A stretch of 64,000 nt of DNA from contig JAULBX010007773.1 of the NCBI GenBank assembly GCA_032358255.1, positions 302,530 through 366,529 on the forward strand. The letters run 5' to 3'. This document shows, piece after piece, positions 4,438 to 50,417 of this stretch. The notes under the pieces are model-generated. The model was not told the origin of the DNA and did no database searches. It saw only the letters and a program-made list of their open reading frames with translations. The stretch comes from Heterotrichella gracilis (lineage: Eukaryota; Sar; Xanthophyceae; Tribonematales; Xanthonemataceae). Position 1 is the stretch's first letter. Each line of letters starts with the position of its first letter. The position numbers were made by a program, and so were the translations under genes.

Positions 4438-7400
4438 TCACATCCTGTACTGCGGCTTGCTGTTCATCCACTTGAGGCACCATTTGAGGTGCGTGAGCAT
4501 GTACTTGAGCGCCTTGGTCCACTTGGCGTCGTTGTTAAACATGTAGCGAATGGTGAGGCCCCCCACCTTGTCAGAATCGATGGCATAGGGGGGGTCAAAC
4601 ACCTCTGAGCAGTTGTCGGCGATGTCCTTGGCCTGGGCAAACTCGGTGAACTCCTGCAGGGCGGTGTATACATGAGCAAATGCACATGCATATAATAATA
4701 AGGGACATAAATAATCATACAGTTGAAAATAATACAAGTGAACTTACATTATTTGATGCAGCAAACAAGTAGATGTATAATTTAGTGTTTGACAAGTATT
4801 TCTGTTCCCCACCACCCACCACCCCACCACCACCCTTTGCCTCCACCACCCACACACGCCACCCCACCCTGCGCCCTCCCTCACCTTGAGGCAGGTGATG
4901 AAGCACACCATTGCCTATTTTATGGTTTAGGGTTTTAGGGTTTGGGGCTACCTTGAGGCACGTGATGAAGCACACCATTGCGCGATCGTAGGTTGCACAC
5001 AGGTACTTGTTGACGGGCCCGTACAGCTCGTAGGTGGTCTTCTTGTCGGAGATGCGCGGGTAGGAGCCCATGGGCAGCAGCCGGTACTGGGAGAAGTTGA
5101 GCTTGAAGGTCTGCGAGGGTGCGCTGGGGTGGGGTCGGGCAGGGGTCTGCAGGGTTTGCCATTTAGGGTTTAGGGGAGGAAAAGTTGAGCTTGAAGGTCT
5201 GCGGAGAACGGGTGGTGTGGGGTCACGACATCGGGCATCTAGGGTTTAGGGCAGAAGGAGATAATTAGGGCAGGGGCTTCAAGATTTTAGGGTCTCGTGG
5301 AAGACAAGGGCAGCAGGCGGCACAGCAGAGGTTGAGCTGGAAGTCTGTGCGGCAGGAGAGGCCATGCGGCGCAACATGGTAGCTGATCTCTGGGCATGCA
5401 CAGCTGTGATTCCCCACTTTCACATGTCAGATTGTGAGCAGCAGCTGCGCCGCCTGCACCCCACCCCCATCGCCCTGGGGTACATGCCATCCCGCCCCAA
5501 TCAAACGCAGGGGTGCACCACATCCCCACCCCACACGCAACCACGGCCGGCGCCCGCCACCTCCCACCACAACACCCGCCTCCACAACAGCAAGACCCAT
5601 TGCCACACCTCCCACCACCACCGCACCACCACCACCACCCCACCCACCTGCGCCATGGTGTGCAGCAGCAGCACCGCCTGGCCCCACGCCGCGTTGATCT
5701 CGTCCCACTCCACCGCCTGCGTGGGGGTGCGCCCCAGCCGGAACCCGCTGATGGTGCCAAAGGGCCCATCGTACCAAATGTAGAACACGTCGTTGTACAC
5801 GTTGGTGCGGCGCAGGGCATCCAGCTGGCGGGTGGCCAGGTCGATGCGGGTGAGCATGGCGTCCCGCTCCTCCACGTGGCCCCGCAGCTGATGAGGCAGG
5901 GGGGGAATATAAGAGAAGAATTAAAAACAAAAATAATTTGTGTAGATTTTATAATAAAACTTATACTTAGTGCGGGGGTGAGAGGGGTGTCAGGGACGGG
6001 GTTGAGATGGCGTCCCGCTCCTCCACGTGGCCCCTCAGCTGATGGGGCAGGAGGGATATTTAAAAAAAGTTGAATTTTTGGACAAATCATTTGTGCTTAT
6101 TTACAACGTATTATGATCATCTTAGTGCGAGGGTGAGCATGGCTTTGTGTTTCTATTGGAAAAGAATTTAGTGCGGGTACGAGGGTTTGTCAGGGACGGG
6201 GTTGAGATGGCGTCCCGCTCCTCCACGTGGCCCCTCAGCTGATGGGGCAAGGAAGGGATATGTTGCAAAATGCCTTAAAATAAAACTGTTTTTGTTTTTG
6301 TTTTTGAAAAGAATTACATTTAAGTTAGTGCGGGGGCGAGAGGGGTGCCTGGGACGGGGTTGGGGGAAGAATTGAGGGGGGGGGGGGTGCAGCAAGTGCG
6401 CATCAGCTTGTGTGTGTGAGCGTGGGCTTGCGCCCTTCCATGTGGTCATCCAGCTGCTGGGTGGGCGGGAGAGGGAGGGGTCAGGGGTGCGGCGTGGTGC
6501 ACAGGTGGGTGGTGGAGCTGGTGTGGCAGAGGGTGGCGCAGGATGATGCAGCAATAAGGGGTGTGTAAGTGCCAATTAACAAATGTGATGACAATCATTA
6601 GTCAGGGAGTGGTGGACGCCATATCTTTGTCAGGGATCCTTGGTCAGGTGCACTGAACCTGGTAGTCACTGATCGTGTAATCCACCACCATTTAATTCCT
6701 TGACGGAACTTGCTGTGGAAATCGTTGGTGAAGGGCTTCGAGTTTGGACCACAGCTTCAAACGATTTCCACAGCCACTTCCGTGAAGGTAGCAAAGAGGT
6801 GGTGGATTACATAATCAGTAACTACAGGTACATTGTGCCTGACAAAGAAACCTCCTTGCGTTCACACTCATCAGTAACCGGCACTTCTGGAATTTTGAAA
6901 TGCCGCAATATGGGCGTGCCAAGCACACATTGCCTGCCGCATTTACCTGCCACTGAAACTCGTTGAAATCGTGCCAGTAGCGCTCCTCCAAGGAACTCAA
7001 ATCCTGCACGCCATGCACACAGGACCCAATTAGCGAGCATGCCAGCATCACCATTGACAGTTTGTGATGGACTCCCATGCACAAGGATTGCAGATCCCCC
7101 GCACGGCCAATATGGCAAGTACGCAACAGCAACGCATATTCTACACAAAATAAGACAGTGAAGACAACATTGCACCGGCGTATGTGGAGCTGAACGCAGT
7201 ACCCACACGATGCACGTGTCTCCGACCCCCCAGCACACATTCAAATACCAGCTGCACTGCCCGCAGCAGCAGCAGTCTACCAGGACCCTAAACCCTAAAC
7301 CTCAAAACCCTCAACCCACCTTGGATGCCAGGTGCACCACCCGCAGCAGCAGCAAACCACCGGGGACCCTAGACCCTAAGCCTCAAAACCCTCAACCCAC

Positions 7401-9266
7401 CTTGGATGTCAGCTGCAGGCGCTGCAGCTCGCGCTCAGCATCCGCCAGCTCAGCAGCCAGGCACGCCACCGTGTGCCTGCAACATGCAGCGTAATTGGTT
7501 GATGCCACATGCTTCAACCCTGGCCCACCAGGAACTGGGGCATATGATTATCACATGGTACAACCGTACAAGATCGCTTGGTATGACCAGTGCCGGGATA
7601 GAAGGCTTGGCACGGCATATGCGACGCTGGCTGCTCATCTGCTGGAATCCATCACACAACTAAAGGAGACAATCCAATCCCCTGCACTTACTTACACAAC
7701 ATGGCCATGACTTGTGTTTTGTATCCGCCCATGCACATTGGGCAAGCAATGCCAATGCCTGAATCCACGCCCTGCTGGACTGCAATCAACGCCCAGGAGT
7801 CGCCTGTTTAGGGTTTAGGCGCCTCTTTACTGGCTTGGCAGCAACCCAGTTTCCTCCACTGCTCTGCAGCATACCTTTCTTGTTGCAGCTCCTCCTCGGC
7901 TTGCTGCAGCTGCTCATCGAATTGGCTCTGTGGCAAGGGCTCCCTGGGATCGTCCTACAGGCAGGGGCACAAAATTTGGCTTTGTGGCAAGGGCTCCTTG
8001 GAATTGTCCTACAGGCAGGGGCACACATGCTGTCACCACCACCTCTGCCACCCCATGCTGTCCCCATAACCTCTGCCAACACATGCTGCCACCACCATCC
8101 CTGCCACCACCTGCTTACCCCCCACCCCTGCCACACCGGCCCTGCCACCACAGGCTTTCACCACCACACCTGCCACAACCGGCTGTAATTCCCCACTCGT
8201 GCCACCACAGGCTTCCACCACCACGCCCGCCAATGCTGCACCCACTGCTCTCATGGCACTACCCCGGAGGGCGGCACACCACCGTACCTGCAGCCGCTGC
8301 AGCGCCTTCTCATACCGCTCCAGCTCCTGTTCTGACTCCACCGCCCGCTTGCCGAGCTCCTCGCGCAGCCTGGTGGCGCACTCGCGGCAGACCGGCTGCT
8401 CAATCTGCGCCAGCAGAGCACACGCTGTTGGCTCACCCTGGTTGCCGCCCCTAACAGGCGCGCGCTGGCAGATACAGCCGTAAACAACCAAGTTGGATTC
8501 GCGCCAACCCCAAAACCCTAAACCCTGCACTTGATGGAGAAGCACAGTTGGTGCACTACGACACCGCAAGGGCTGCCACTCCCCGCTCATCCGCGTTTCC
8601 CCATATCACTGATGCTGATAAGCAGAGCTAGTGTGGGGTGACGCCAAGGGGGCTGCTGAGAACACTCCTCCCTTACCTGCGTCTCCCCCGCTGCCACCTC
8701 AAAGAGCCTGGTGAGCGCTTGGAAGGTGGCAGAGGGCCCCCCGGGTGGCTGCGTGGCGGGTACCCCTTGGCCGGGCTTGGGCGTGGAGGAGGGGGCCAGG
8801 AGCACAAAGGACTCCTCCATGCTGCGCGGAGGGCCTGTGACACGCAACCAGGGTTGTGGTTGGAGCCAGGCCTGAGGGATGCTGGTATGAGGTGTTCAGG
8901 GACATTTGGCAGCAGGTTGTGAAGGACTGCAGTGCATGGCGTGTGGCTAGTGGTAATTGCAACCCACCCGGTGCGCAAGTACATGGTATAGGTATGGTAT
9001 GGGTAGGGGGAGTATCGCACCACACCTGAGGTGCTTGGCTGCTCGTTTGCCATGGAGCCTTTGCGCCCACTGACAGCATCGTCCAGTAGGATGAAGGACT
9101 CGTCGATCTTTGGGAGCCCACTCGTGCTTGCCCCTCCACCCTGGGTGGCCTGCTGGTTCTTGTACGGTAGCGCACTCCTCAGGGCTTGAGACGTGCTCTC
9201 AGTCCACGTGAACTGTAGCTTCACCTTGCACGACTGGCACTGGAAGGTCTCCAGGTTCATGGCCAT
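4438..9266 (-). CDS. ATG6: Beclin 1 / ATG6 autophagy protein
   Basis: Beclin 1/ATG6 is a regulatory subunit of the class III PI3-kinase (VPS34) complex in autophagosome nucleation and endosomal sorting. Nine exons, minus strand: 9266-9026, 8834-8677, 8404-8288, 7954-7875, 7476-7401, 7003-6947, 5887-5648, 5110-4952, 4653-4438; all phases agree and give 447 residues, against 450 in human. A CxxC pair ([12 protein letters not shown]) sits near residues 8-19 and two DESF(I/V)LL-like motifs follow in exons 1 and 2. A coiled coil spans about residues 134-243, including [15 protein letters not shown]. The evolutionarily conserved domain follows: [40 protein letters not shown] and the aromatic C-terminal segment [18 protein letters not shown]. 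The start is the ATG at 9266, with a second ATG two codons later. Introns hold several exon-edge duplications. Confidence 0.95.
4882..4914 (-). repeat. duplicate of ATG6 exon 8 3' edge with splice donor
   Basis: This segment repeats 4950-4981, the end of exon 8 and its GT donor, with few mismatches. TTTAGGG-like units at 4922-4946 separate the two copies. Confidence 0.85.
4922..4946. repeat. telomere-like TTTAGGG units in ATG6 intron 8
   Basis: Three degenerate heptamers in a row lie between the true exon 8 edge and its copy. Confidence 0.75.
5179..5352 (-). repeat. two duplicates of ATG6 exon 8 5' edge
   Basis: Copies of the acceptor-side exon edge (true site 5092-5113) occur at 5179-5204 and, more diverged, at 5331-5352. 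TTTAGGG units lie at 5163-5174 and about 5250-5257, between or beside the copies. Confidence 0.75.
5965..6365 (-). repeat. tandem block duplicating ATG6 exon 7 5' edge
   Basis: The first ~45 bases of exon 7 with the acceptor (true site about 5857-5900) recur at 6006-6053 and 6206-6254 with only a few changes. The surrounding G-rich spacer starting GTGCGGG repeats with them at about 5969, 6171 and 6328. Confidence 0.85.
7259..7408 (-). repeat. 80-bp tandem repeat at ATG6 exon 5 3' edge
   Basis: 7259-7327 and 7339-7408 are near-identical. Each ends with the last bases of exon 5 and the GT donor, and each contains CCCTAAA-like units. The copy adjoining the intact exon is taken as the functional donor. 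Confidence 0.85.
7979..8026 (-). repeat. duplicate of ATG6 exon 4 5' edge with acceptor
   Basis: Repeats 7924-7974, the start of exon 4 and its polypyrimidine/AG acceptor, at a period of about 55 bp. The copy carries its own acceptor-like AG. Confidence 0.85.
8030..8240. repeat. imperfect CTGCCACCAC-type minisatellite in ATG6 intron 3
   Basis: Many degenerate repeats of a CTGCCACCAC-like word fill most of the intron upstream of exon 4. Confidence 0.6.
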
Positions 9267-10070: not shown

Positions 10071-13000
10071 ATGGGTCACCTGGTCCTGAGAAAGGAGGTT
10101 ATAGACTTTGGGTCCCTTCCCCTCGCTCTGCTCCTGCCTCGGCTGGACAACGTCCAGTCAATTGAGGCGTTTGTTGCCGAAGCAGGGGCCTCCAGCAGCC
10201 ATGTTTACGACACCCAGCACGAGGGCAACAACTCACGTGCGTGCTTGCTTCACTGTAGGATTATAGGCACAAGCAGCCTTTGCTATTATCGTCATCTCTT
10301 TTGTCTCTCAGAAAAGGAATGGTCACGTTCAGCTTGCGATCCTTGTTGTTGAAGCATTGGGTGGGGTATGGGTGGTGTGGGAAGGGTATGCACCTCAGCA
10401 AGGGCACTTACCCGCTGTCAAACTTGCAGGATACATCAACACACAGGCTGCTGCAAAGCTATTAGACATCAATACGCAGCACCTACAGGTGGGTTCTGCT
10501 GTGAACAACAGGTCTGCTTGAGCGCCAGTTGCAGTACTGGATGCAAGCCATGGAAATGCCCAGTTGGTAAACGGGCTGTGCTTGCTTGCAGATCGTCATT
10601 GATACGCTGGTTGCGGTTTCGGAGCCTGGGCGCCGGATAACGTCGTCACGACAAGGCAAGTATGGCACCCATGCTTCCCTAGTGTCCACGCATAGCTGCC
10701 ACACCCCCTCTTACTGGCCATGTGTGTGCAGGGGACACTGAAAACACAGCGGTTGACATACACGCCCTGGCCCTGTTCCTGTTTGCGCAAGTGTATGTGC
10801 GGCAGTCGCAGCGGACAGACACCGCGGACCACTGGCCCGCGCAAGGGGGGTCTAACAGTCATGACTTCTCCCCGCTGTCGCTCAGCCCCCTAGAACCCAC
10901 GTCCCCCACCATCCGGCAGCAGCACCGCAACCCTTTCAACAATGCAGGTAAGAGCCCAAAGGGCGTGCTGTTTGTCTCCTTTAAGGGTTGCCCGACTTCC
11001 CACCTTTTGCTGAATGAGGCAAGACGTGGTACATGGGAGTGTACTGGGTCATAACCACCCTTGCAACTGGCACCACCTAGGCTTGACACACCAGCTACCT
11101 GAATTGTAGCTGGATCATGCTCACAACTCACAAGGGACCTGCAAATCCCTTATTGGGCAAGCCAGCCTTATGGTGCTGGCACACCGCCCACCCACCATGT
11201 ACCAACCCACGCGTTTCCCGCAGCCCCCGTGCAGCGCACCCGCAACCACCACCAGGTCCAGGAGTCGCTCCAGCTGCACCTGCAGCAGCACCAGCAGCAC
11301 CTGGCGGGCTTCCTGGACTTCATACAGCGCCACAGCCAACAGCTGCTGCACCTGCTGCTGGACCAACCGCCTGGACCAGCCAAGCCCAACAATGGGCAGA
11401 TCCGCGCGTCGGAGTTTGACAGGTGGGGCAGGGTGCATCAGCGCAGGGCAGAAATAAGGAATACGCATATCCACGCAGCTGGATTTGGTGGGTGAGGTCG
11501 GTGCAGCGGATGGGGCTGCGCCGGTGGAAGCCAAACCTGAAACTCACCCCCTGCCATATTGCATCGCTATGCCAGCTGTAGTACATCAGTCCCTGTCTGG
11601 GGCATGCGTAGTTACAGCCAAATTGGCAGTCATCCCGAGTGCATATGTACAGCACAAGCTCTATGGCCTGGTTGAGCGTGCTGGTGGCTGTGGTCCAATC
11701 CAGCAGCAGCAAAGCCCATCTCTCAGCTGGAAAGTGCAACTGCCACCCGATATCGCCGCGCCAGCTATTCTTCGCTCCCCACATGGGCGTACGCATTGAG
11801 CAGTTCCTTACATGCATTCCAGCGTCAGAGCCAGCTTGCCCCGCATATGCCTAATCATCACAGAAATTTTTACGATTTCCTTTTCATTTTTGCCAGGTTG
11901 AGCGTGCTGGTGGCCGTGGTCCAGCCCAGCGGCGGGGGGGGGGAGGGTGATGGAAGCCCCATGGAGGTCTGTGGCACCCCATTCACGGATCCATCCACCC
12001 GCCTCAGCCTGTTCACGCCCGCTTTCAATGCAGATGACAGCAGCGAGGACTCGAGCGCGCCCCTGGCGGCGGTGGCGGAATGGCTGGCGGGCCACATCAG
12101 CTCAGCGGCGGCCAACGATGCGGGGCCAGGTGCGCATGGTGCCATGAAATGCAGTTTACAGGATGTACAATTTTTCATTTGACATGAACTAAGAAGGAAA
12201 TGAACGGTAATGGCGCGGGTCAGACGCGGGTAAAGCGTGCGCCGTGCTGTCTTGAGTTGGTTGGTAGTTAGTTGTGCAAGTTCCAGCGCATCAGATTCCT
12301 GATCAAATATAGTCAGATCCGATAATGAATAATAACAAAAAAATAATAGGAATACATAGTAACGGCATTTTTAAACCGGTTTGTTGCCGGGTGTGCCTTT
12401 TAAGTCCACAATGTCATGGCAATCAGAGCGAGTACATGTACTCAGTTTGCAATGGTTGAAGTTGCCTGTGTGCGGGTGTGCCCACAGAGCCCATGGCCAC
12501 TAGCCCCAAGGGCTGGTTCGTCAACCGCTGGCTGGGCGACGCCGCGTCCACCCCCGGCGAGGTGGCCATCCAAGGCATCACCAAGGCCACTGTGGTGAAG
12601 GGGGAGGATGACCTGGCGGGGGGCACAGTGTGCGTCACTGACTGCCACGACGCCATCGTGTACGCGCTGGGCGCCGCGCAGTTCTGCAGCATCAGCTACT
12701 GCACTGACTGCACCATCGTGGTGGGCGCGGTGGGGCGCATGGTGGTGGTGGAGAACTGCGAAAATGTGCAGGTGCGCGCTGATCCCAGGGATAGTAAGAT
12801 CAATCAGAGTCTGTACTGGTTTGATAATAGTAGGCGCATGGTGGTTGTGGAGAACTGGGAAACGTGCAGCTGCGGCGGCGGGCCAGATGTTTCCAGGGAG
12901 AGCCAGCCTTGCACGGGTTGATTAATCTACCCATATTGTGAAATTTTAGACTCCCTTAGGATGTTGATGGGGCAGCTGGTGCTGATGCATGTGCATAGCA

Positions 13001-24120: not shown

Positions 24121-27231
<3,111 letters not shown>

Positions 27232-36600: not shown

Positions 36601-38419
36601 GGAGGCAGCGGCTCCCTGTTGGCGGGTTGCTGGGGCACACTGGCCCAGTCTGGCGCTGGCTTGTCCACTTTCAAGCTGGCTGCCGGGGTGCTGCAGGCGC
36701 TGGCGGTGGATGAAGGTGAGGTGCTGGGGATCTGCCAGTTGCTGAGGAGTGATCAGCAAGGGTAGGCTTTGGCGGTATCAATGTACGTGTGAAGTGCTGC
36801 TGTTGGAGCATTAGATGCGCGCTTGGGGGTAATGACCACAGCACACAACTACGCTGTACATGTCAAATTGCACCTGTCGTTAGATTGGCACTGAACCTCA
36901 TCAAACCCGACGTCTGCCCTGGACACGCTGCAGGAGGCTGCACCGCCCTCCTCCGGTCCCCGGTGGCCCCTGGTCTGGTCCCCTTGCTGCACACCCTCCT
37001 GCACAGGCGGGACCACCAGCGGACTGCCTCCCTGTTGGAGGTGTTGGCCAACATGGCGGCACACATGCACACCCACAGGGCGCTGCTCAAGCCACCACCT
37101 CAGCCACACACCCCAGGTAGGCCCAGCCCAGCCCCACGCGATTGTTGGTTTAATGATGTGTCGATTACTTTTTACCCATACCTCGTGGTGCTGACGCTTC
37201 ACCACAAAAGCTTTCTCAGGTTCCAACCGCACCAAACTAAACGTGTGTGCACCACCAAATATGTTCCATTTGCAACCTCCTTACAAGGTCACTAGCTCCT
37301 TGCATTCCTTCCACCCCAGCCCGTCTGTACGCCCATGCAGGCCTGCTCGAGCTCTTGCTCAGTGCCGCAGCCCTCCCCCACCCTGCCACGCGCACTGCCG
37401 CCCTGTTCGCCTTGCGCAATCTGTGCTTTGGTGCTGATGCGCGCCCCCACCTGCGCGCCTGCGACACCCTGCTGGGGGTTCTGATGGGGGCCGCCATGCG
37501 CGGGGTGGAGGACCCGACAGGTGAGCATGGTTTAAACAGTCTAGGGTTTAGGGGTTAGGGTTTACATGCGCCTGCGACAGTCTGCTGGAGGGTGCTACTG
37601 AGGCCGGCGATGCGCTGGGTGGAGGACCCACCAGGTGAGCATGGTGGAGCTGTTTAGGGTTTACAGGCTGCTTCGACACCCTGCTGGAGGTGCTGATTGG
37701 GGCGGCCACGTGCACGGTGGAGGTGGGCATGGAGGAGCTGTACATGGTTTAGGGTTTAGGTTTTAACTGTTGCTGTGCCAGCCATGCTCAGGTTATATTA
37801 CGAATTGTATCAGTGAATGAATTTATACGTGTGCGCAGGCGCTGCCCTGGCCTCCTCCGCCCTGTGGTCGCTTTTGTATCATGGGGAGCAAGTTAAGGCG
37901 GGGTTGCGCAGGGGCTGGCAGGACGATGCCTGCGGCAGCCTCAGGTACCTGGTGGGCACATATGAGGCGGCCATCCAGGTGAGCTCTAGCCCTGTGTGGC
38001 AGGGGAGTTAACCATCCTAATTTTCATAGTTGAGGTCAGAAAGCGTCTGTAGGGTACAGAAGGGTACCACTGCTAGGCAGGAGCCCTCCTTGGCATCATT
38101 CCCCAACTGTGGCTGATCAACTTCTCTGACAGGCACCGTGTATGATAAATAGATATATTTTTTATTCTTCCATTCTAATGTTGTCAATTTTTTTCATTAT
38201 GTTTTTATGTTTTTTCTGTTTACTTAATAATTGCAGGTGAGCCACAGTGAGCGGGACGCCACCATGCAGCCAGGGGCTGATTTGAGGAGGAGTGGTGGCG
38301 GTGGTGGGTGCGGTCATACCTACATTAATGCATCACCAGATGACGAGGAGGCGCTCGTGTGGTGTATGAAGGGGCACCACGCCGCCTCCATGTTGCTGCA
38401 CTGCTTGGAAGCTGCGTGA
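27646..38419 (+). CDS. RTTN: rotatin (RTTN/Ana3) homologue, centriole/basal-body protein
   Basis: Rotatin is an armadillo-like repeat protein needed for centriole assembly and length and for basal-body function. 23 exons: 27646-27679, 27821-27940, 28026-28246, 28391-28451, 28555-28716, 28827-28912, 29102-29418, 29655-30946, 31127-31418, 31542-31810, 32001-32497, 32619-32689, 32802-32850, 33163-33411, 33573-33749, 33978-34217, 34366-35107, 35382-36201, 36450-36715, 36934-37116, 37320-37520, 37839-37978, 38237-38419. All junctions are in phase; total 2223 residues, near the animal length. The N-terminus LVSKLGHPLQEVRSRSW matches the start of rotatin as I remember it (KLGH.L.EIR.R), split by intron 1. 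Leucine-rich helical repeats follow. C-terminal blocks (LLRHLVHDNPPARQACCDAG, LFALRNLCFGADARPHL, ALASSALWSLLYHGEQVKAG) match its end. The middle is weakly conserved. Confidence 0.9.
37541..37762 (+). repeat. two copies of RTTN exon 21 3' edge with TTTAGGG units
   Basis: The last ~75 bases of the exon ending at 37520, with its GTGAGC donor, recur at 37566-37650 and, more diverged, 37664-37741. TTTAGGG units occur at 37541-37563, 37654-37662 and 37747-37762. The first copy keeps an intact-looking donor. Confidence 0.9.
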
Positions 38420-40744: not shown

Positions 40745-40766
40745 TGCCACCCACTGTAATCGGCGA

Positions 40767-43700
40767 TCATACCAGCACACCTCCCGTAAGCACCCTCCTG
40801 TCCACCTCGTCCCTGTTGCTAGTGAAGATCTCAATGTAGCGGTTGGTGTTCTGGACAAAGGGGAAAGCGGGGTGTCGCAATGGTCAGGGGAACAATGGGG
40901 GAAGGGTGCCCGTAGTGGAATCTGAGCCTAGGGGGGGCAGGGCCGCATGTGTGGCAATTGAAGGCCGTGCTTGCGCTTTTACAAGGAAAGGTGGAGCCAT
41001 GCACTCTCAGTGTACTTAGTGATCAACACCTGATGATGTTCACCAGGTCAGATTGCTGACAATCCAATAAATCTACAGCCACTCTTCAGAAATAAACGAT
41101 GCTGATTAACAACCTGCCTAGGGTTTAGGGTCTAGGGCTTTAGGTTCCTCCCCACCTCCAGCATCTGCCTGTCCCTTGCCAGCGCCAGTTTGAGCTTTGC
41201 CTTTGGCCCCTTCATCTCAGCATACGCCTCGCCGGTGGCGCGCCCATCCAGGCCAATCACAAGCAGGATGTCCTCCGGCTTGACATCGCCGCAACCCTAG
41301 GGAAGGGTTTTTGAATGAGGTGAGGCGGGGTGGAGGGTAGTAAGAGGGGTGGTGGTGGTGCCTGATAGGGATGGAGGGGCATCTAGCTGTACCCATGGAC
41401 CAGCAAAGGTGGCGTTATTGTCTGCCCTGTCATTCCATGCCACATTGTGGCCAGTTGATATTCGCGCATTGACCATACCCAGCTCTCCCAACCCCCCCCT
41501 CTCGCCCCCCCAACCCCACAGACCAAAGAATGCCGCCACCCGCTCCTTGGTCACATCCAGCGGCAGGCCCCTGGGCTTAAAACCCTCTTCCCCCCTCCCT
41601 CATACCCCACTTCCCCCCAAGCACAACCCGCAAGCACCCTCCCACCATCACCACCCACCCACCTCGAAGAACGCCGCCACCCGCTCCTTATTGACATCCA
41701 GCGGCAGGGCAGGCCCCTGAGCCTAACACCCTCTGCCCCCCCTCCCTCCTACCCCTAATCACAATCCCAAGCACCCTCCCACCATCCCCACACCCACCTC
41801 GAAGAACGCCGCCACCCGCTCCTTGGTCACATCCAGCGGCAGGCCCCGGAGCTTGACCCAACCCTCCTGGTAGGGCACGTCCGCTGCGTTCAGCGACTGC
41901 AGCAGCATGGTGGCCATGGCAGGGTTGGTTGCCACCAGGGCTGAGATTGAGGGGTTGAGGGCAGCCACGCCGCTGATGCCGGGGGGGAGGGGGCCCACAG
42001 GGGCGGAACCTGCGGGGTGGGGGTGGCAGTTGTGTGTGAGCGCGCAAGATGTGTGTAATTCACATGCGGAGATGCAAAATAGAGATGAAGTGCCCTAGAA
42101 GCGTAAGAAGGACCCCCGCCTCCACCACACACAGCGCCTTCACTGTTGCCCTACATCTATGTCCCCATTTCCCCCTACACACCCACCACCACCACCACCA
42201 CCGCCACCGCCACCACCACCACCGCCACCACCACCACCGCCACCACCACCAGCCACTCACTTAGCACCGACAGCCCCAGCGTGTGGCCAGCCTCCAGCAC
42301 CCACTCCCCCGTCTGCGCGCGCAAAAACTCGGTCTCCGGCACATACCGCGCCTTCACCCGGCTCTCGCACAGGCGCCGCCCATGGAACACCCTCCGGGCA
42401 TTGCTGGCGTCGTCCGTGGTGATGTATTTGAGGTAGGCGCGGGAGGGCTCCGAGGCGGGGATGGCGGGTGGTGGCCGGGGCACGCACACCGCGATCACTG
42501 TGTGGTGCCGGGAGGCCTCGGCGCGCACCTCGGCTTGCCACTGTGGGGATGGAGGGCGGAGTGGGTGGATGGAGGGCGGCAAATGGGCGGGAGGATAATG
42601 ACTGGGGTGGAATTATACAGTGAGGTGGAGGACGGCATGCTTACATGTATGTGCGTGTGTCTTGGTGCCTATGCTTCTATGTAAGGGTTCTAGCATCGGA
42701 TTAAACGTGATGGTGGTGGTAGAGATCAAACCCTAGAACCCTACATGTGTCCATCACAAAAGCCATGGCCAAAACCAACACCCAGTACCCCTCCCGCCCT
42801 CCCCAGGCGCACACAATCCAAACCAAAACTGCATGCATGTGCATGGGAATGTATGCACCGCGGTAACTTGCTGATCATGCCTTGCGGTCACAGCAAGCCA
42901 TAACAGTCCAATCAATGTGGCACTCTGAGTAAAACCGTGCAGGCACAGGGGGAGCGCTGCGTGGTAGAGTATGAGTGCCAGGCAGGGTGTGTGTGGGAGG
43001 GGGGTGACATACCAAACGAGCAATGCTCATGCTTGATTTTGGGAGGCACATGGGACTGCAACTCATGCCCAACAAGCCAGAACAGGGACAAGGATGTCTA
43101 CCCGGTGCATATGGCATTCTTAATGATGATGCAATCCCAGCGATGCATGCTCTGTGATGCATTCACACAGGTTGTGCCAGCACCAGTGAACCAGGAGCTC
43201 CACACTATTACAAGCAGATACATGCAGGCCCCGGTTCCTCCACAGCCCTCCCCTTCACCATAACCCCTCATCCCTCTGTTCCTTACCCTTTGCCGCTCCT
43301 CCTCATCCAGCATGTGCAGCGCCCTGCTCCCCTCCTCAATGACCAGTACAGTGGTGGGCGGCTGCACCTGGTTCTGCTGCGCCTGCTGGAGCAGACCAGG
43401 CTGACTCAGCACCGCCTTGGCGGGCGCCACGTGGCCTCCTGGGGGCTCGATGTAGCCCTTGGGGCGGCCCACGTTGATCTGCGGGGGGTAAGGTAGTTGT
43501 AGGTGGTGGTGAGTGGTGGGTAACGGGTCTGGGTGTGGTGGGGCATGTTAGCCATGGGCCGGGGGGTGGAACCATGCATGCGTGGTGGAGATGCATGGGC
43601 CTGTGGGCGTAGGGTTTCCCAGGCGTTAGGTGCAGGGTTTCCCACTTCATAAGCTGCAAATTACACCAGGCGTCACGTTGCAGGGGTTAGTGGCTGGAGG

Positions 43701-45507
43701 GTCTAGGATTCTACCCATGCAGGGTAACTGTCATACATGTGAAGGGTGTCTGTTCAATGGCAAGGTGCTTGTCCCCACCTGTCTCCCGCAGACCTCCGCC
43801 TTGTCCATCATCATTGCGCTACTGGCAAGCTCCTCAGACCGCACCTCCACAAAACCAAACCGGCCTGGGGGAGCGAAGGTGGACAGGTCAAGGAGATGGT
43901 CAAACAACAGGCTGCAGTGATGCACCCAGGTGTCACCAAGGTGTAATGCCCTCCCCCTTCCCCACACATATGATGGGCCCATCTGCGCGTGATAACCCAT
44001 CGCCTTGCACCCACACACGCACCCATTCCCTTTACTATTATCACCATCTTCACCACCCACCCACACATCCCCACTGACACACCAGATGCCTCTGCCTTCT
44101 CTCCCCCCACACACTACACCACCACCACCACCACCACCACCCACCACCACCATCACCACCCACCCCACCACGCACTCATCTGACGGGTCCGCCACTAGGT
44201 GCGCCACGGCTGCGTTGAACAGTCGCGCAGCGTCTAGTCGGTGGAAATGAACCCCCACCCACCCACATGCACCAACCCAAAAAGTAGCCTCCCCGGGCCC
44301 CTCCCACCGCACAGCATCCACCCCCCACCCCCACCATCCCCTCCCCACCCACCTGATGGGTCCAGCTGCGCGTTGACCACCGGAGGGTTTGTGACGGGGT
44401 CCGCCACCAGGTGCGCCAGTGCCGCGTTGAACAGCTCGCGCAGCGTCTGGTCGGTAACCACGCCTATGGCCAGGTTGCCCACGTACACCTCGCGCTGCTT
44501 CTTGCTGGCGGACTGTGCGCTGGTGCCGGCCATGGCTTGCTGCGGGATGGTAGGTGGTGGGTGGGTGGGTGGGTAGAGAGGTTACATGAGTTAATGTGGT
44601 GTGCGGGACGGGGTGACGGGCGGCATCAGTGAGTGCAGGTGGGGCTAAGGGAGGTGAGCGGAGTGCGCAACATGTTTTGTCTTGGCAGACACGCCCCACA
44701 CCATTTTCGGGTCATATGGAGAGCGTATTGTCAGCGCCGAAGCACGGAAACCCTAGCAGGGGTTGCCAGTACTCTTGCCGATGATAGGTCACATACATGT
44801 TCGGGGATTGTTGTTGGGTGCAGAGTGCGCGGCCTCACCTGTTGTTGTAGCATGAGCTGCTGCTGCATCAGCTGGGCTTGTAGCTGCTGTGACTGTATCT
44901 GCGCCACAGACGCCATCTGCACAGGTAAGGACCAGGAGGGGGGATGGCCCTCTTCAGCTGCTCCAGGCAGCGCAGCACATATGCACGGCAAGTGTGGTGC
45001 ACGCTGCATGGTATGCCGAGTGATTTTATTTGCTGCCACATCAGGCTATGAAACTTTTGCACTATGTTGGGTTGGGGTGTGAATGCTATGCATGCATATG
45101 CAAGTAGCACAGGCGACCTACCCCACTGAATCGGTTGCCTCCGCCGCGGCTGCTGTCCTTTCGAGGACTCCTGCTCCTGCTCCTGTGACATTCGCGAAAC
45201 AGAATGAAATTTTGACACTGGCAGACACTTCATCATCTGGACGACCGCCAGACACATGCATCATAATGCAACAATATACCCCAAAATGCAACCCAGCCCA
45301 AGCTGCCCCACACGTTCTTGATGGCAAGACTGGTACCTCACGGCGAAAGGGACTTGCGTGTTGGGTGTGCGCTACGTACCTTTTGCGGTAGCGGTCCCTG
45401 TCTCGGTCCCGATCCCTGGAGCGCGACCTTGATCGTTCACGCCTTTTGGAGCCCGAGCTCCTGTGCCGGTCTCGCGAACGAGACCGGGAACGGGATCTCC
45501 GACCCAT
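40767..45507 (-). CDS. RS-domain splicing factor with RRM, U2AF-homology-like domain and quasi-RRM
   Basis: Likely a nuclear pre-mRNA splicing factor related to the U2AF65/PUF60/CAPER group. Ten exons on the minus strand: 45507-45380, 45182-45122, 44916-44839, 44539-44353, 43864-43779, 43478-43287, 42540-42261, 42009-41798, 41296-41156, 40850-40767; all in phase, 482 residues. Residues 1-63 are RS/RD-rich (MGRRSRSRSRSRDRHRSS) and a glutamine-rich linker follows. An RRM starts near 105 (REVYVGNLAIG as RNP2, GRFGFVEV as RNP1). About residues 219-325 resemble a U2AF-homology motif (TTVLVI start, RAYLKYITTDDASNARRVF end). A C-terminal quasi-RRM of the hnRNP F/H type (WVKLRGLPLDVTKERVAAFF, ATGEAYAEM, NRYIEIFTSNRDEV) closes the protein. 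This order is unlike canonical U2AF65. If exon 9 were read through, an in-frame TAG would follow within eight codons. Confidence 0.85.
41520..41712 (-). repeat. two copies of the splicing-factor exon 8 3' edge
   Basis: The end of exon 8 (true site 41798-41850) recurs at 41661-41712, including the donor, and at 41520-41572, where the donor is lost. Period is about 140 bp, with C-rich spacer repeated too. Confidence 0.88.
42177..42252. repeat. CCACCACCGCC microsatellite in splicing-factor intron 7
   Basis: About 70 bases of CCACCACCGCC-like trinucleotides lie just upstream (on the + strand) of exon 7's donor. In the transcript this reads GGTGGTGGCGG. Confidence 0.9.
44110..44165. repeat. CCA trinucleotide microsatellite in splicing-factor intron 4
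   Basis: CCACCACCA-rich run; GGT repeats in the transcript. Confidence 0.85.
44177..44243 (-). repeat. duplicate of splicing-factor exon 4 3' region
   Basis: Repeats parts of 44350-44450 (end of exon 4) with small deletions, about 190 bp downstream in the sense of transcription. Confidence 0.8.
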
Positions 45508-46039
45508 TTTGTTGAGAAGAACGGAGGCTGTGCTGAAGTGTTTGGCTCACAAAGCAGTCAGGGAGGTATTTGGCTGTGTGTCCATCAGCTGATGTGATGG
45601 GTAAGAAACGAGCGCATCCAGAGAGTGGGTGTCCGAGGGTATGGTATGGTTCAATATCTGTTACTTCACCTGTTGAATGTGGTGAAAGGCTGGTGGATTG
45701 AGCGCCCTTTCACCCAGTTTCTTGGCTTTGAAACATCACTGCCGGCTCTCGGTTGTGACGTCCCCTCTGCGATGCAACTATTGTCTCCGTCCATGGATAA
45801 GGCCCATTCCGAACGTACAAACTTTGCAAAGTGTTGCACAACTGTATTCTTCACCAACACAGGCATCTACATCAGTGGTTATAAACCCCGCGTGTACGGT
45901 GTTTCGCCGTGCTTATTCGCTGGTAAACAACAGGGCCCACCCAGACTGGGTGTCATCTTTTTGCCCAGCACATTCCAGCCCAGTGACCCGTTGACAACCC
46001 CATTGCACAACAACTGGTTGCTGCTCACAGCACGCCATC
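45508..46039. other. divergent intergenic region between splicing factor and DXR
   Basis: 532 bp between start codons. Overlapping open frames here have no family features, so it is read as a back-to-back promoter. Confidence 0.5.
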
Positions 46040-49000
46040 ATGCAGAGCAGTAGCTTACTGGGGCACCAGCCCTGCTCCCGGATCGCACTCGGTCACGGAA
46101 GCAGGAAGGGCCTCAAGCACCGGGCGGCGAAGGCCACACCCTCTCCAGTCACCTGCAGCACGCCACAGGTCCCCTCAGCCTGGCCCGGCCGTGCAGTTGC
46201 AATAGAGACGAAGCAGCGTGATGGTCCCAAGGTGGGGCTGCCACCCACCCACCAGCACTGGCCCCTGACATCAGCACATGGTGCATGTCCCACCCACACC
46301 TTGCATGTCAAGTCATCGAGTTGGTTGCCCCGGTTTCAGCAGTGCAGCAAGGTCAGCATGCTGCAATCTGCCATGCATGCCTTGCACCAGCATCCTGTCC
46401 TGGCACTGCATGCACTGGCGATCACTTGCAGCGCGCATGCAGCGGCACCTCATATGCCTGGGGCCACCTCGAATTTCACCCAAAGGAAAGCGTTAGCCCA
46501 GCACCTACACCGTGCTTGTCCTTGAGCATGCGGGTGGGTGAGGAAGGGCGCTGCCCTCTTGTCTTAAATACCCCTCCCATTACCATGCCGTGACAAACCT
46601 CACAACGACTCCAAATACGTACTCCCCACCTCACCACTCCTCCCCACCCCGCAGAAATTCTCCCTCCTGGGCTCCACCGGCTCCATCGGCACCCAAACCC
46701 TGGACATTGTTGCCGAAAACCCCGACAAGTTTGAGGTGGTGGCCCTGGCAGCGGGGGCCAACACCACCCTCCTGGCGCAGCAGATCCGCCAGTTTCAGCC
46801 CCAGATGGTGGCCATCCGCGACGCCAGCAAGGTAGCAGAGCTAAAGGAGCTGATCAAGGATGTCCCCACCCAGCCAGAGATCCTGGTGGGCGAGGAGGGC
46901 GCCATCGAGGTCGCCCGGCATGCAGACTGCGAGGCGGTTGTCACAGGGATTGTGGGGTGCGCGGGGCTGGGTCCAACTGTGGCGGCCATCAGGGCGGGGA
47001 AGGACATCTGCCTGGCCAACAAGGAGACCCTGATCGCTGGGGGGCCCTATGTGCTCCCGCTGGCACGCGAGTTTGGGGTCAAGATCCTGCCAGCGGATTC
47101 CGAGCACTCTGCCATCTTCCAATGCCTGCAAGGTACGGTTCTGGGTGCATTCACATCCATATGCGCCGCTGGTGCTTGGATTGGAGCCCTTTCTTATTGT
47201 TGTAACTGGGTACATGCATGCCAGTGGGGGGGTGCGTTCCAATGCCTGCAAGGTAGGGTTATGAACGCACAGGAGGGTGATGCGGGCACAGTCACATTCG
47301 CCGCTGGTGCCCAGGGTGATGGCCTTTCTTGTAGCTGTGAATGGCGCATTCATGGCGGTGGCGGGATGCAATTCATGGGAGGATTCCCTCCTCCTCGTTG
47401 TTACTCTGCCCCATGCCTGGCTACCGAGCGCGGCCGTTCAAGAATAGGCTGGCGTACGATTATCAACTAAGTTTGCCTGCCAGGCCTGGCTGAGGGCGGC
47501 ATGCCCAGGACTGAATCTTAATTTTGCGGTTTTCCAACGGCAGGCTGCATGCTGATCTGGGTTTTCCCCAGGGACAGGTAGCGTACTGATCCGTGTTTTT
47601 CTGCCTGCCAGGAACTAGCTATTTCTATTGTTGATCCATTATATATCTATTATTTCCCTATTGTTTATTGCCTGCCAGGCCTGCCCGAGGGCGGCATGCG
47701 GCGGATCATCCTCACCGCCTCTGGCGGCGCCTTCCGCGACTGGCCGGTGGAGCGGCTCAAGGAGGCAAAGCCCGCTGACGCGCTGAAGCACCCCAACTGG
47801 GACATGGGCAAAAAGATCACCATCGACTCGGCCACGCTCATGAACAAGGGGCTGGAGGTAATGCTTTATATGTTATGATGGGATATCTACAAGGGATTTG
47901 TATATGGAAATATAAAGCTAATTCAACATCGACTCCGCCACGCTGATGAACAAGGGGCTGGAGGTGATGCATCAATGTGTTTCTCAAATCAAATAAAATG
48001 TAAACCCATTTATCGTACATTTTACATCAAGTCGACAGAATCCTTTCTGCTTGTATGAGGACTTTCTGGATCATGAATCATGGTGTGTGGCTAGGCACTC
48101 CGACAGCATTCCAGCATTCAGCCAGCCTTAACAGCCAGCCTTGCACATGCGGCGCCAAGCGCTGCCCTGGGCCAGAAATCCCGGCACTGGTCACCATTTG
48201 CTGATCTGGCGTGAGCTCAGGTACTCTTGTGACAAGTCAGCCCATGCGGTCCTGGACTTACCTACCCAAATTGCCCGTTGTAGGTGATTGAGGCACACTA
48301 CCTGTTTGGCGCCAGCTACGATAACATCGACATCGTCATCCACCCGCAGAGCATCATCCACTCCATGGTGGAGACGGCAGACTCCTCGGTACTGGCACAG
48401 GTAGGGATTCAGGCATATGGGGAAGGGCCGGGAGATCCTCGCCAGGGTTTTTGTGCCGGGTACAGGTGCACCAGGGGGGATTATGTCACAGTGCTGTTGT
48501 GGGTTGCTGCGCTTGGTCAACATGGGCATTTATGGTTGCCGCAACTGCCTATACACACGCATGCAATTGTTGCACTGTTGCTGAGTTCCTTGACCCCCTA
48601 CCCCCCTACACCCACACCCCTCCCACCCGCAGCTCGGCTGGCCCGACATGCGCCTGCCCATCCTGTACACCATGTCGTGGCCGGAGCGGGTTGAGTGCTC
48701 GGAGGCCACATGGCCCCGGCTGGACTTTGTCAAGGTGGGGCAGCTGGACTTCCGGGCGCCCGACAAGGCCAAGTACCCGTCCATGGACCTGGCGTACGCG
48801 GCGGGCAGGGCGGGGGGGACCATGACCGGGGTGCTCAGCGCAGCAAATGAGAAGGTGGGTGGTGCTGAGATACTTAAACCATAGAGGGTATGTGGGTGGT
48901 GTGGTGGTGTGCAGAATCCTATAGCTTAATGACAAGGCCAAGTACCCGGTCTATGGACCTGGCGTACGCGGCGGGCAGGGCGGGGGGGACCATGACAGGG

Positions 49001-49473
49001 GTGCTCGGCGCAGCAAATGAGAAGGTGGGTGTGTGGCAATACACATCAGTAACCACCAAATACCTGCATCACTGCCCACTTCATGTTCACCAGTGTGGTT
49101 ATATTTAACCAAGTTAGATATATAACACGGTTTAGCTTTTATTCATAATCGTTCTTCTACATTCTACATTCTATATTTGTTTATGTCTCAAGTTTTGTAA
49201 TTTATAATTGATAAGCCAGTTTTAAGACAGGCGTCACTTGTGTTTATAACAGCCTGCCTGATGTCAATCCCGCAGGCTGTTGAGCTGTTCCTTGACGAGA
49301 AGATCAGCTACCTGGACATCGTCAAGGTGGTGGAGCAGTGCTGCGGGGTGCACCAGCAGGAGCTGGTTGTGGCGCCCACACTGGAGGAGATTGTGCACTA
49401 CGACCAGTGGGCCAGGGACCACGTGGAGGCGCACGTGGGGGCGGGCTTGAAGCGCACGCCGGTGGCGGCCTGA
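46040..49473 (+). CDS. DXR: 1-deoxy-D-xylulose 5-phosphate reductoisomerase, plastid
   Basis: DXR converts DXP to 2-C-methyl-D-erythritol 4-phosphate with NADPH and a divalent metal, the committed step of the plastid MEP isoprenoid pathway. Six exons: 46040-46231, 46655-47132, 47679-47857, 48284-48400, 48633-48854, 49276-49473; in phase, 461 residues against 477 in Arabidopsis. Exon 1 is a transit-peptide-like segment from the ATG at 46040. NADPH-binding GSTGSIG lies at residues 70-76 and [11 protein letters not shown] at about 184-194. Metal ligands are Asp212 and Glu214 ([11 protein letters not shown]) and Glu283 (LMNKGLE). The flexible-loop and substrate segments [20 protein letters not shown] and MSWPERV are present. 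Every key residue I know is intact. Several introns and the 3' flank hold exon-edge copies. Confidence 0.97.
47230..47320 (+). repeat. duplicate of DXR exon 2 3' edge
   Basis: The end of exon 2 with its donor and the first intron bases (47116-47185) recurs here in two diverged pieces. Confidence 0.8.
47925..47972 (+). repeat. duplicate of DXR exon 3 3' edge with donor
   Basis: Repeats 47819-47862 with few substitutions, including a GTGATG donor-like site in place of GTAATG. Confidence 0.9.
48931..49031 (+). repeat. 100-bp duplicate of DXR exon 5 3' edge with donor
   Basis: Nearly identical to 48761-48862, including the AAG|GTGGGT donor. It has one inserted base near its start and a few substitutions. 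Confidence 0.93.
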
Positions 49474-50417
49474 GGGCTGGGTGCTGTGTCTGCGGGGGTG
49501 GCAGCGTGAGGGTGCGCTGGGTGTGCTACGGTGGCGGTGGTGGGGGTGGGTTGGCGGCGCCCGCGATGGAGGAGATTGTGCACTACAATGAGTGGACAAT
49601 GTTCCATGTGGGGCCGGGCTTGAAGCGCAGGGCGGTGGCGGCGTGAGGGGTTGGGTGCTGTGGTGGTGGGCAGGGGCGGTGGGGTGGCGCAAGCGGAGGC
49701 AAACAAAGCGCATGCAGGGGCAGGCTGCACGCAGCCGCGGAGAGCTTAGGGTTTAGGGTTCACCCGCGGGGAGCTGGGGGTGGCTTGGTGCACGGCAACG
49801 GGGGTTGATGGTGGGGTTGCGGGCCAGGTGGGCTAGCCCCGTGGACTACGGCCCATAGTCTATGGGGTGCATGGGCACTTGCGCGGAGCACTTGTGCGCG
49901 CATGGCTGTATGGGTGGTGGGGTGGCAGTTGAGTGCAATGCGTCAGGGGTTGCTTGCAGAATCATGAGGAGCAGCTGCCGTGTGGCTTTGGGGCCATGTG
50001 CAATCAGTGCTGTGGGCTGGGTGCACTGGATATAACCTGCCAGTGCAGCTTGACCATCATTGCTTTGGCTGCAGCGACTGTCTGACTCGGCAACATCACT
50101 GTGATAACTAGCTTGCAGCTGGGCACCTGTGAGAAAAAAGCTCTTTGGATTGACCCCAATTGCTGCAAGTTGCGTAGGCTAATTTGTATTAAATTGGGTT
50201 TTGCAGCTGCGCAGCGTGTGTACTGCCCATATGCTACCAGTGCCTGCAGCGTGTAACAGTCAATGCACTGATTTGGCAATGTCTATCAACCTAAGGTTTG
50301 GTCAAGACTCAGTCAAGCAACAAAGTTGTTAGCAATCAAAGATGCCAGGCCCTTTTCACAACAACTGAATCTGCTCACTGTGACGCCAGTCCAACCCACA
50401 AATCCACAAGATTTCAT
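49474..50417. other. DXR 3' flank with a degenerate copy of its last exon
   Basis: 49556-49652 copies the coding end and stop region 49369-49478 in degenerate form. Two TTTAGGG units lie at 49746-49758. The remainder, to about 50.4 kb, shows no gene. Confidence 0.6.

Follow-up and report, generated by a model that had tools for sequence, protein, structure and literature searches.

Genes and exon-edge copies in the window

The window, by which we mean the whole stretch of 64,000 nucleotides of Heterotrichella gracilis DNA analysed here, carries genes whose names ATG6 (PF04111, PF17675), TBCC (PF07986) and MFS (PF07690) are supported by Pfam, together with a DXR gene with 75-83% identity to homologues (among the 120 matches listed), a putative splicing-factor gene and a gene named RTTN in an earlier note, whose piece gave no Pfam match. 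That note had described degenerate duplicates of exon edges in the introns of these genes, 20-100 bases long and 50-230 bp away. Our search of the window recovered 28 direct pairs at the catalogue threshold (score of at least 44) against three inverted ones and none in a single block shuffle, with copies of 27 to 124 bp and offsets of 54 to 359 bp, close to what had been claimed. Twenty of these pairs touch a splice border of the gene model, where random placement gives 7.7, although one of the twenty (49365) is the coding end of DXR, mis-called as a donor by the gene model.

In ATG6, on the reverse strand, the exon-edge duplication at 4884-4914 and 4951-4981 keeps 31 of 32 bases identical around a spacer with a telomeric tract at 4924-4943, and that at 5090-5136 and 5178-5224 encloses a telomeric tract at 5162-5175. 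Further along, an exon-edge copy is accompanied by two intronic copies (5830-5898, 5985-6049 and 6168-6261), whose spacers are not telomere-like and match nothing elsewhere in the genome (20 of 20 candidates scored). The donor-edge duplication at 7266-7336 and 7346-7417 holds a telomeric tract inside both copies, at 7285-7301 in one and as a mutated partner in the other, and an acceptor-edge duplication lies at 7937-7971 and 7991-8025. The genome search found no second ATG6 locus.

The TBCC-domain gene, on the forward strand, contributes to the catalogue an acceptor-edge duplication (11666-11707 and 11892-11933) and a donor-edge one (12734-12776 and 12833-12874). In a second acceptor-edge case, a copy at 13655-13737 is separated from the exon copy at 13839-13923 by a telomeric tract (13738-13751) followed by filler (13752-13838) that matches nothing else in the genome, every candidate having been scored. 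By eye, and at 13738 only, the joint nucleotides appear to be in register, as microhomology would be.

The MFS gene, also on the forward strand, has three copies at 19443-19503, 19550-19609 and 19659-19714, with telomeric tracts at 19522-19546 and 19619-19628 between them. An acceptor-edge copy at 21706-21726 of the exon edge at 21806-21826, with a telomeric tract at 21756-21766 between the two, is genuine, though its shortness (19 of 21 bp identical, score 32) puts it below the catalogue threshold. In the search for second TBCC and MFS loci, a dispersed repeat dominated the matches, of whose 380 candidates 39 were scored. In the gene named RTTN (forward strand) a donor edge is triplicated at 37455-37531, 37568-37645 and 37671-37723, each copy being followed by a telomeric tract (37542-37564, 37652-37663 and 37746-37760); the genome search with this region, 37455..37760, found only the region itself (1 of 1 candidates scored) and no second locus. 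The putative splicing-factor gene, on the reverse strand, has donor-edge copies at 41526-41587, 41614-41733 and 41752-41866 and an acceptor-edge duplication at 44181-44242 and 44392-44455, both counterparts of which occur in C836, the second DXR locus described below.

Duplication had also been claimed at the coding ends of four genes, and this is borne out in three of them: TBCC (15051-15129 and 15180-15253, with an in-frame stop inside the first copy), MFS (22731-22854 and 23034-23149) and DXR (49365-49488 and 49549-49662). The claim for RTTN is doubtful, the best match past its coding end being 21 of 25 bp with a score of 30, against 24 for inverted matches.

Placement of the duplications

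Over 314 kb from three sequences, the window included, we catalogued 110 local direct duplications, about one pair per 3 kb, against four inverted pairs and none in block shuffles (one per sequence). Copies have a median length of 59.5 bp (range 26 to 277 bp), and a spacer of at least 8 bp separates them in 102 of the 110 pairs, the median spacer of all pairs being 55 bp. Being direct, local and the size of an overhang, they have the features of tandem duplications from staggered breaks. For placement, exon borders are those predicted ab initio by a gene model alone; the eight pairs with shorter spacers were left out of the border counts, including those for the youngest pairs, for high-scoring exons and outside the window, and triplicate arrays yield non-independent pairs, P values being indicative.

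On these terms, 75 of the 102 pairs touch a predicted splice border, where random placement gives 30.0. The excess holds outside the window (55 of 74 against 22.2), when the count is limited to high-scoring exons (56 of 102 against 15.9) and among the youngest pairs (11 of 14 against 3.6). Wholly intergenic pairs number one of 110 where 15.1 are expected, and both copies are fully coding in five of 110 (9.8 expected). The earlier note had proposed a recurrent local process that makes introns longer and has a preference for exon borders, which our results support, and had named equal frequency in intergenic DNA as an outcome that would tell against it; the counts went the other way, and the observation is real beyond the window too. 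On the intron side, 10 of 29 pairs still score above 0 past the end of the copy (0 of 29 at random), so that the short intron-side reach of the copies is partly underestimated.

Ordinary local tandem duplication, by slippage or unequal exchange throughout the genome, might look the same if a constrained exonic partner kept border copies recognisable and the telomeric words were unrelated. Decay is indeed slower where one partner is constrained, the window pair 47117/47237 resembles a plain 120-bp tandem duplication, and pairs that overlap an exon would touch a border in 58% of random placements (87% observed). However, the excess is as strong in the youngest pairs, where decay hardly matters and on which, although they are only 14, decay as the sole source of the border preference is rejected; moreover, spacers of the length and frequency seen here are unlike slippage. 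Together with the telomeric evidence that follows, this makes plain tandem duplication an unlikely explanation.

Telomeric tracts between the copies

Perfect three-unit runs of TTTAGGG occur at 834 places in the genome, against 0 for the reversed control, and arrays of at least 49 nt lie on 11 contigs, six at or near the very start and five in reverse orientation. Both observations make it very likely that H. gracilis has TTTAGGG as its telomere repeat, and the short tracts of it away from chromosome ends would then be interstitial telomeric sequences. The window has 24 tracts of at least 9 nt and 15 of at least 12 nt, where five simulations at each Markov order from 1 to 3 yielded 0 to 3 of the former and none of the latter. 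For each of the seven positions at which telomeric units had been reported (4922, 5163, 7287, 13740, 19521, 21757 and 37541), a perfect tract of 11 to 17 nt begins no more than 2 bp away.

Telomere-like sequence fills the spacer in 35 of 115 pairs, while equal stretches beyond the copies are telomere-like in nine cases on the left and nine on the right (loci L001, L006 and L034-L037 were left out of this count and of the polarity count below). Such spacers are found in 27 of 75 border pairs and 5 of 27 non-border pairs, and 4.8% of 2040 length-matched random intronic stretches near splice sites are telomere-like. The telomeric spacers of the earlier note are real, but they make up only about 30% of all spacers, some 70% being other filler. 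Seen from the tracts, 23 of 94 are flanked by a direct duplication (score of at least 40) and 0 of 94 by an inverted one, with 1.0, 2.7 and 4.4% at control positions. It had been held that telomeric units no closer to copies than chance would speak against the association; they are closer than chance. Perfect tracts are intronic in 86 of 94 cases, and their median distance to a splice site is 37.5 nt, compared with 109 nt. This clustering of sequences that need no partner to be recognised, and the concentration of telomere-like sequence inside pairs relative to their outer flanks, both argue against the plain tandem duplication considered above.

Relative to mid-intron, telomeric 7-mers are 3.5 times (G strand) and 5.8 times (C strand) as frequent at intron starts, and 1.0 and 5.1 times at intron ends. 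Telomeric words might be kept there as splicing aids, G-runs by donors and C-rich CTAAA by acceptors, a possibility compatible with break repair. It draws on G-strand words being enriched at intron starts only and C-strand words at both ends, with a weak strand asymmetry for perfect tracts (Fisher P 0.09); yet either orientation is found near donors (30 C, 28 G), a tract of at least 10 nt lies within 60 nt of an end in only 51 of 470 introns, and the words are placed at duplication joints, a position that does not follow from a role in splicing. As an account of the tracts it appears very unlikely. Stop codons within telomeric words, as what ends model exons, were also considered and rejected, control words giving only 1.04x and 1.03x.

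The earlier note had suggested break repair with re-copying and telomerase-type fill-in. The copies' direct orientation, their spacers and the one-sided events between DXR loci given below agree with its first part. The second is not shown: extension of the 3' ends of a break should place TTTAGGG by the upstream copy or CCCTAAA by the downstream one, and among 44 cases 20 fit this polarity, 23 do not and one is a tie. Shared sequence beside the tracts, as reverse-transcribed telomerase RNA would leave, was rejected as well, any one non-telomeric 9-mer being present in at most 4 of the 104 tract flanks.

The two DXR loci and a proposed repair of breaks

The DXR gene of the window, on the forward strand, has its coding exons at 46655-47132, 47679-47857, 48284-48400, 48633-48854 and 49276-49475 (to the stop codon), and the second DXR locus, C836, supplies empty sites for events in the window and vice versa. 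C836 has a single copy at three of the window's duplications: the donor-edge tandem duplication at 47117..47263 (period 120 bp), the donor-edge duplication at 47817..47978 (49-bp spacer) and the one at the coding end. Two others are common to both loci, the acceptor-edge duplication at 47473-47504 and 47668-47699 and the donor-edge one at 48762-48864 and 48931-49035, the spacer of the latter having a clear telomeric tract in C836 and none in the window. This division into shared and one-sided pairs leaves out the pair 44122/44304, and the list of insertions between the two loci (12 of 13 scored) misses 47817 and 49365, which are not single gaps in the alignment. In turn, C836 has two extra acceptor-edge copies at a site that is single-copy in the window. 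The second of them ends in a telomeric tract: at C836 rc 5299-5411 the tract lies at the joint of a copy, and the matching empty site of the window is without one. C836 rc 4761 further carries a telomeric insertion of 30 bp that the window lacks. Telomeric sequence therefore stands at sites that are empty in a related locus, in this one locus pair, and would have been inserted at the C836 sites in one step. Elsewhere in the sample, 34 paralogous stretches were found, and the four pairs aligned gave one insertion of at least 25 bp, intergenic, without duplication and weakly telomere-like (score 23).

These empty sites bear on the order of events. A pre-existing intronic tract could act as a fragile site that provokes the duplication, a view compatible with break repair and in line with the promotion of rearrangement by interstitial telomeric sequences reported in the available text of PMC11626172; in 7266-7417 and 37455-37760, tracts in or after more than one copy indicate that the duplication of an exon edge can take a tract with it. 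Against it, the empty window site matching C836 rc 5299-5411 has no tract, and tract-like sequence is far commoner inside a pair than beyond it, which leaves a prior tract as a somewhat unlikely starting point.

In exon 1 of C836 (rc 3369-3526) a 28-bp duplication surrounds an insert, while the window exon 46655-47132 is uninterrupted. The insert is called an intron by a gene model whose training did not include C836, but that model likewise takes two duplicate copies in C836 for exons. The duplication is in register, would provide both GT and AG and is absent from the homologue; on removal of the predicted intron, the joined peptide matches that of the window, the C836 gene being one base short in another exon. 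By the model's prediction, this event probably made a new intron. Its signature was found in 4 of 454 introns at a score of at least 14 (14 of 468 introns having been left out beforehand) and in 0 of 2265 controls, one of the four being the mis-modelled DXR end; with in-register pairs so rare, the birth of introns is ruled out as the general origin of the pairs.

The exon-1 event may also be the insertion of an element with a 28-bp target duplication, because its filler resembles dispersed sequence, with 15 other weak matches (76-95% over 35-102 bp); it further shows 73% similarity to part of the dispersed repeat at window 19914-19984, present in at least 39 places. A mobile element of introner-like, MITE or SINE kind that inserts close to exon borders and leaves exceptionally long target-site duplications could by extension underlie the other pairs. 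Nevertheless, the ATG6, RTTN and TBCC fillers and two young ones (C2, C46) have no other copy with all candidates scored, those of DXR have no match beyond C836 (40 of 84 candidates scored), the spread of copy lengths is unlike a fixed target duplication, and the tract flanks share no more than the telomeric words, as given above. Among the inserted sequences no repeated family was found other than that suggested by the C836 exon-1 filler, and an element as the general cause is distinctly unlikely.

Taken together, the duplications, their telomeric joints, the enrichment at borders and the one-sided events between the two DXR loci are best explained, with a probability of roughly 0.6, by recurrent repair of staggered breaks, with duplication of the overhangs, capture of filler and survival filtered by splicing. 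The lesion would be a staggered DNA break, or a pair of nicks, one on each strand, separated by some tens of bp to 150 bp, presumably commoner in or beside exons. Filling in of both overhangs before joining would duplicate the segment between the nicks, and filler DNA would often be captured at the joint, very often telomeric repeat, which may come from telomerase addition or from capture of a telomeric fragment. An exonic event would survive mainly when the duplicated piece includes a splice site: splicing could then remove one copy and the filler, leave the mRNA unchanged and let the intron grow from its edge, and a rare event in the body of an exon might supply both GT and AG and thus a new intron. 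The arrangement of exon-edge copy, telomeric tract and copy looks like a scar left by break repair, through which introns become longer and new ones may arise. In human and mouse cells, the available text of PMC8355091 describes how CST-Pol alpha, the telomere fill-in complex, fills complementary 3' overhangs to give small tandem duplications. A bolder proposal, which we consider rather doubtful, is that in this algal lineage telomerase and CST-Pol alpha jointly serve to repair staggered breaks in general, such breaks arising preferentially within exons or next to them, and that this repair, leaving copy-telomere-copy at each use, is the main engine of intron end growth and of occasional new introns.

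Each ingredient has precedents. In primates, rodents and horse, short telomeric tracts were inserted at double-strand breaks, some with random filler and a minority with direct target duplication (6 of 130 rodent, 4 of 25 primate and 3 of 66 horse loci, plus two complex horse ones), ascribed to staggered breaks in the horse paper, and the intronic placement of 31% in human was called compatible with random (PMC2246262, PMC7215372). The tracts at breaks, the occasional filler and the direct duplications are common ground, whereas here at least 23 of 94 tracts are duplication-flanked and the tracts are mostly intronic and crowded at splice sites. Small tandem duplications of tens to about 100 bp arise from staggered breaks or paired nicks when overhangs are filled in before end joining (PMC8355091, PMC5730883), in rice also with extra inserted DNA (Vaughn and Bennetzen 2014, cited in PMC5730883 and PMC7407515); the available text of PMC8355091 and PMC5730883 mentions neither telomeric filler nor a preference for exon borders. 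Intron gain is described, in the portions available of PMC3443670 and PMC4974935, through a duplicated AGGT-bearing exon segment that supplies both splice sites and, in potato, through a duplicated piece crossing the intron-exon border; compared with these accounts, our cases mostly lengthen the edges of existing introns, with telomeric joints, and new introns are rare. Plant telo boxes, short telomere motifs dispersed in genes for which telomerase at free 3' ends has been proposed, are, according to the accessible part of PMC3022908, enriched in 5' UTRs but not in introns overall (150.7 per Mb in Arabidopsis introns, 155.2 in the genome), although more frequent in the first two introns of Arabidopsis genes; the hot spot here is the intron ends instead. 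Our literature searches turned up no description of this combination, which appears new, as do the density of the events and their concentration at intron ends.

The origin of introns and of their length is a long-standing question for which fresh cases with a readable scar are rare. The scars described here are common, often molecularly tagged and, at one locus, matched by natural empty sites, so that the rate at which they arise, the sites they prefer and their survival would be open to direct measurement; they would also show telomeric DNA to be a frequent filler in gene bodies. The same copies explain decoy exon edges able to mislead gene prediction, as happened to the gene model at the DXR end.

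Local direct duplications and the borders of exons

The window (contig C79, 302530-366529) belongs to an assembly of 68.5 Mb in 903 contigs, and it was analysed together with independent data from contigs C2 (200 kb) and C46 (50 kb), which were chosen by place and were both already present in the first listing of telomere repeats of this genome. The resulting 314 kb, equivalent to 0.5% of the genome, were also used to train an ab initio gene model (468 introns), which recovers the internal DXR exons in line with homology and overruns the true DXR stop into a downstream copy; the names RTTN and splicing factor are those assigned in the earlier note. The DXR of the window is 75–83% identical to 120 listed homologues, including those of Micractinium, Bryopsis, Coccomyxa and land plants, and, judged from these homologues, the genome is a green-lineage one.

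A scan for local duplications, run blind to telomeric sequence over the 314 kb, revealed 110 direct pairs (65 in C2, 17 in C46 and 28 in the window, with three-copy arrays contributing dependent pairs to these counts) and 4 inverted pairs, and a block shuffle, one per sequence, gave 0 pairs. Direct pairs had a median copy of 59.5 bp, a median spacer of 55 bp and a median identity of 0.89. Splice borders were touched by 77 of the 110 pairs, in comparison with 33.2 expected from random placement (46 in the highest of 200 trials), whereas wholly intronic pairs (21 versus 36.0 expected), wholly intergenic pairs (1 versus 15.1) and pairs with both copies fully coding (5 versus 9.8) were all under-represented. 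Among the 102 pairs with spacers of at least 8 bp, 75 lay on a border (30.0 expected), an excess found at every level of identity: 11 of 14 pairs at 0.94 or above (3.6 expected), 23 of 29 at 0.90–0.94 (7.4), 19 of 25 at 0.85–0.90 (7.2) and 22 of 34 below 0.85 (11.6). Similar results were obtained when only exons of high coding score were considered (56 of 102 versus 15.9) and outside the window (55 of 74 versus 22.2). Decay alone gives no reason to expect this excess among young pairs (14 in the youngest class), and an account based on it was rejected.

Among 65 strictly defined cases, alignments typically covered 39–62 nt of the exon and only 11–17 nt of the intron (medians of the identity classes), and none of the 15 pairs with identity of at least 0.92 reached more than 25 nt on the intron side. 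The 40 nt past the intron-side end still gave a score above 0 in 10 of 29 pairs with identity of at least 0.90, versus 0 of 29 random comparisons, and the intron-side reach is therefore underestimated in about a third of them. Two introns, C2:169312-169536 and C2:34371-34630 (in the sequence pieces L025 and L012), carry an in-register donor/acceptor duplication with scores of 28 and 16 (none of 2265 controls reached a score of 14) and are candidates for recent intron gain.

Telomeric repeats in the spacers and next to splice sites

Arrays of TTTAGGG of at least 49 nt occur on 11 contigs, six of which have the array at or close to their beginning, and perfect three-unit telomeric places amount to 834 genome-wide, compared with 0 for the reversed word. 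The window contains 24 perfect tracts of at least 9 nt, and Markov simulations gave 0 to 3. The seven telomeric positions listed in the earlier note were each correct within 2 bp. At window positions 56942-57002, two tracts lie head-to-head, CCCTAAA then TTTAGGG, about 40 bp apart, by eye as part of a small inverted repeat.

Perfect tracts of at least 10 nt were found in 17 of the 110 spacers, compared with 4 stretches of the same length on the left side and 7 on the right. By repeat similarity, 35 of 115 spacers (the 110 pairs plus 5 from contig C836, which carries a second DXR locus) were telomere-like, versus 9 on each side, and some spacers were telomeric over nearly their whole length (e.g., C2 142649-142673 and positions 1499-1524 of the piece L003). 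Outside the window (n = 74), 24 spacers scored as telomere-like, compared with 7 stretches on the left and 4 on the right (binomial P = 2e-5); for the window alone (n = 28) these counts were 8, 2 and 4 (P = 0.06). In the converse approach, the 350 bp to the left of merged tracts of at least 10 nt were aligned with the 350 bp to the right, telomeric sequence being masked. A direct flank duplication with a score of at least 40 was detected for 23 of 94 tracts (12 of 60 in C2, 3 of 14 in C46 and 8 of 20 in the window), versus 1.0, 2.7 and 4.4% of control positions and 0 of 94 in the inverted comparison.

Of these 94 merged tracts, 86 were intronic, 6 intergenic and 2 coding, introns making up 56% of bases. 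These tracts lay at a median of 37.5 nt from a splice site, and randomly chosen intronic positions at 109 nt (P = 1.7e-10); for unmerged tracts outside the window the values were 37.5 and 112 nt, and with high-scoring borders only they were 149 and 309 nt (P = 4e-5). In introns of at least 200 nt, telomeric 7-mers were enriched over mid-intron 3.5-fold (G strand) and 5.8-fold (C strand) at intron starts, whereas at intron ends only CCCTAAA was enriched (5.1-fold versus 1.0-fold for the G strand); other stop-containing words showed no enrichment (1.03–1.04-fold). The absent G-strand excess at intron ends would fit a splicing filter, as runs of G would be expected to interfere with the 3′ splice region.

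Duplication-driven intron gain is established (PMC3443670, PMC4974935). Unlike the cases observed here, mammalian telomeric insertions with a target duplication are described as a minority class, and the intronic share of the human ones as compatible with random (PMC2246262, PMC7215372); for Arabidopsis telo boxes, PMC3022908 reports no overall intron enrichment. Among the titles and abstract openings listed in searches of mainly open-access literature, there was no mention of telomeric joints in exon-edge duplications or of telomere repeats crowding intron ends, and nothing comparable is described for the green alga Auxenochlorella in the available part of PMC12636532. The pattern of duplications and telomeric repeats is real, replicated and unusual; its parts are known, and their combination and placement appear to be new.

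Natural empty sites at the DXR locus

The piece L038 (C836:1-9000, from a contig of 12,984 bp) contains DXR and its neighbouring gene as a second copy, matching window positions 43762-49684 with an aligned identity of about 80%. It may stem from a segmental duplication or belong to a related strain; no second copy of ATG6 or RTTN was found in the genome. The DXR frame in C836 is open apart from the counterpart of exon 47679-47857, which is shorter by one base.

Duplications starting at 47117, 47817 and 49365 are present only in the window, where any single one of them may instead reflect a loss in C836, and those at 44181, 47473 and 48762 are common to both. For the 48762 event, the C836 spacer holds a clearly recognisable telomere repeat of about 20 nt that the window spacer lacks; telomeric spacers therefore fade, and the 30% scored as telomere-like is probably a lower bound. 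Only in C836 does the acceptor edge of the exon matching 48633-48854 occur in two additional copies. The intronic part of these copies is, by eye, closer to C836's own flanking intron than to that of the window, and the second copy closes with telomere-like sequence of about 35 bp, after which comes filler. Also private to C836 is an insert within the first long exon, flanked by a 28-bp duplication whose first copy has GT and whose second copy has CAG. The gene model, without C836 training, predicts an intron there (3369-3526) and the resulting peptide then agrees with that of the window; the same model treats two duplicate copies in C836 as exons and bridges the frame break with an intron of 41 nt, and its call therefore counts as supporting evidence only. 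Among 12 scored insertions of at least 25 bp from the window–C836 alignment list, five, one of them low-complexity, had a flank duplicate with a score of at least 29 (inverted scores at most 21), and two were telomeric, one of these without duplication.

A possible mechanism and the nature of the fillers

Direct, local and overhang-sized duplications with filler are what would be expected if the overhangs of staggered breaks were filled in ahead of joining. In human and mouse cells, overhang fill-in at staggered breaks is attributed to CST-Pol alpha, the telomere fill-in complex (PMC8355091, PMC5730883). By analogy, machinery common to break fill-in and telomeres would offer a natural link to the telomeric joints. 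The strand polarity predicted by the simplest telomerase model was not seen, and the joints may come from captured telomeric fragments or from telomeres used as a template. Hits on exons may be related to gene-body methylation or R-loops, both of them guesses.

The fillers of ATG6, RTTN and TBCC and two young fillers from C2 and C46 had no second genomic copy, all candidates being scored, and those of DXR had no match besides C836 among the 40 of 84 candidates scored. The filler of C836 exon 1 is akin to a dispersed sequence present at 15 other places and at window positions 19914-19984. Captured DNA is thus a mix of telomeric, repeat-derived and unique material.

Several other elements were observed in the window. 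An MFS intron carries a dispersed repeat of about 230 bp (19891-20122) with at least 39 genomic relatives at 70–90% identity, part of which resembles the insert in C836 exon 1. Another dispersed repeat of about 55–170 bp, in a DXR intron (48106-48276), has at least 38 matches elsewhere at 69–89% identity and none within the C836 locus. Moreover, an ATG6 intron holds a large imperfect palindrome of 209 bp (6639-6847) that matches its reverse complement at 75%, and positions 57600-63450 are part of a gene family with mostly 65–70% identical relatives on contigs C7, C557, C330 and others.
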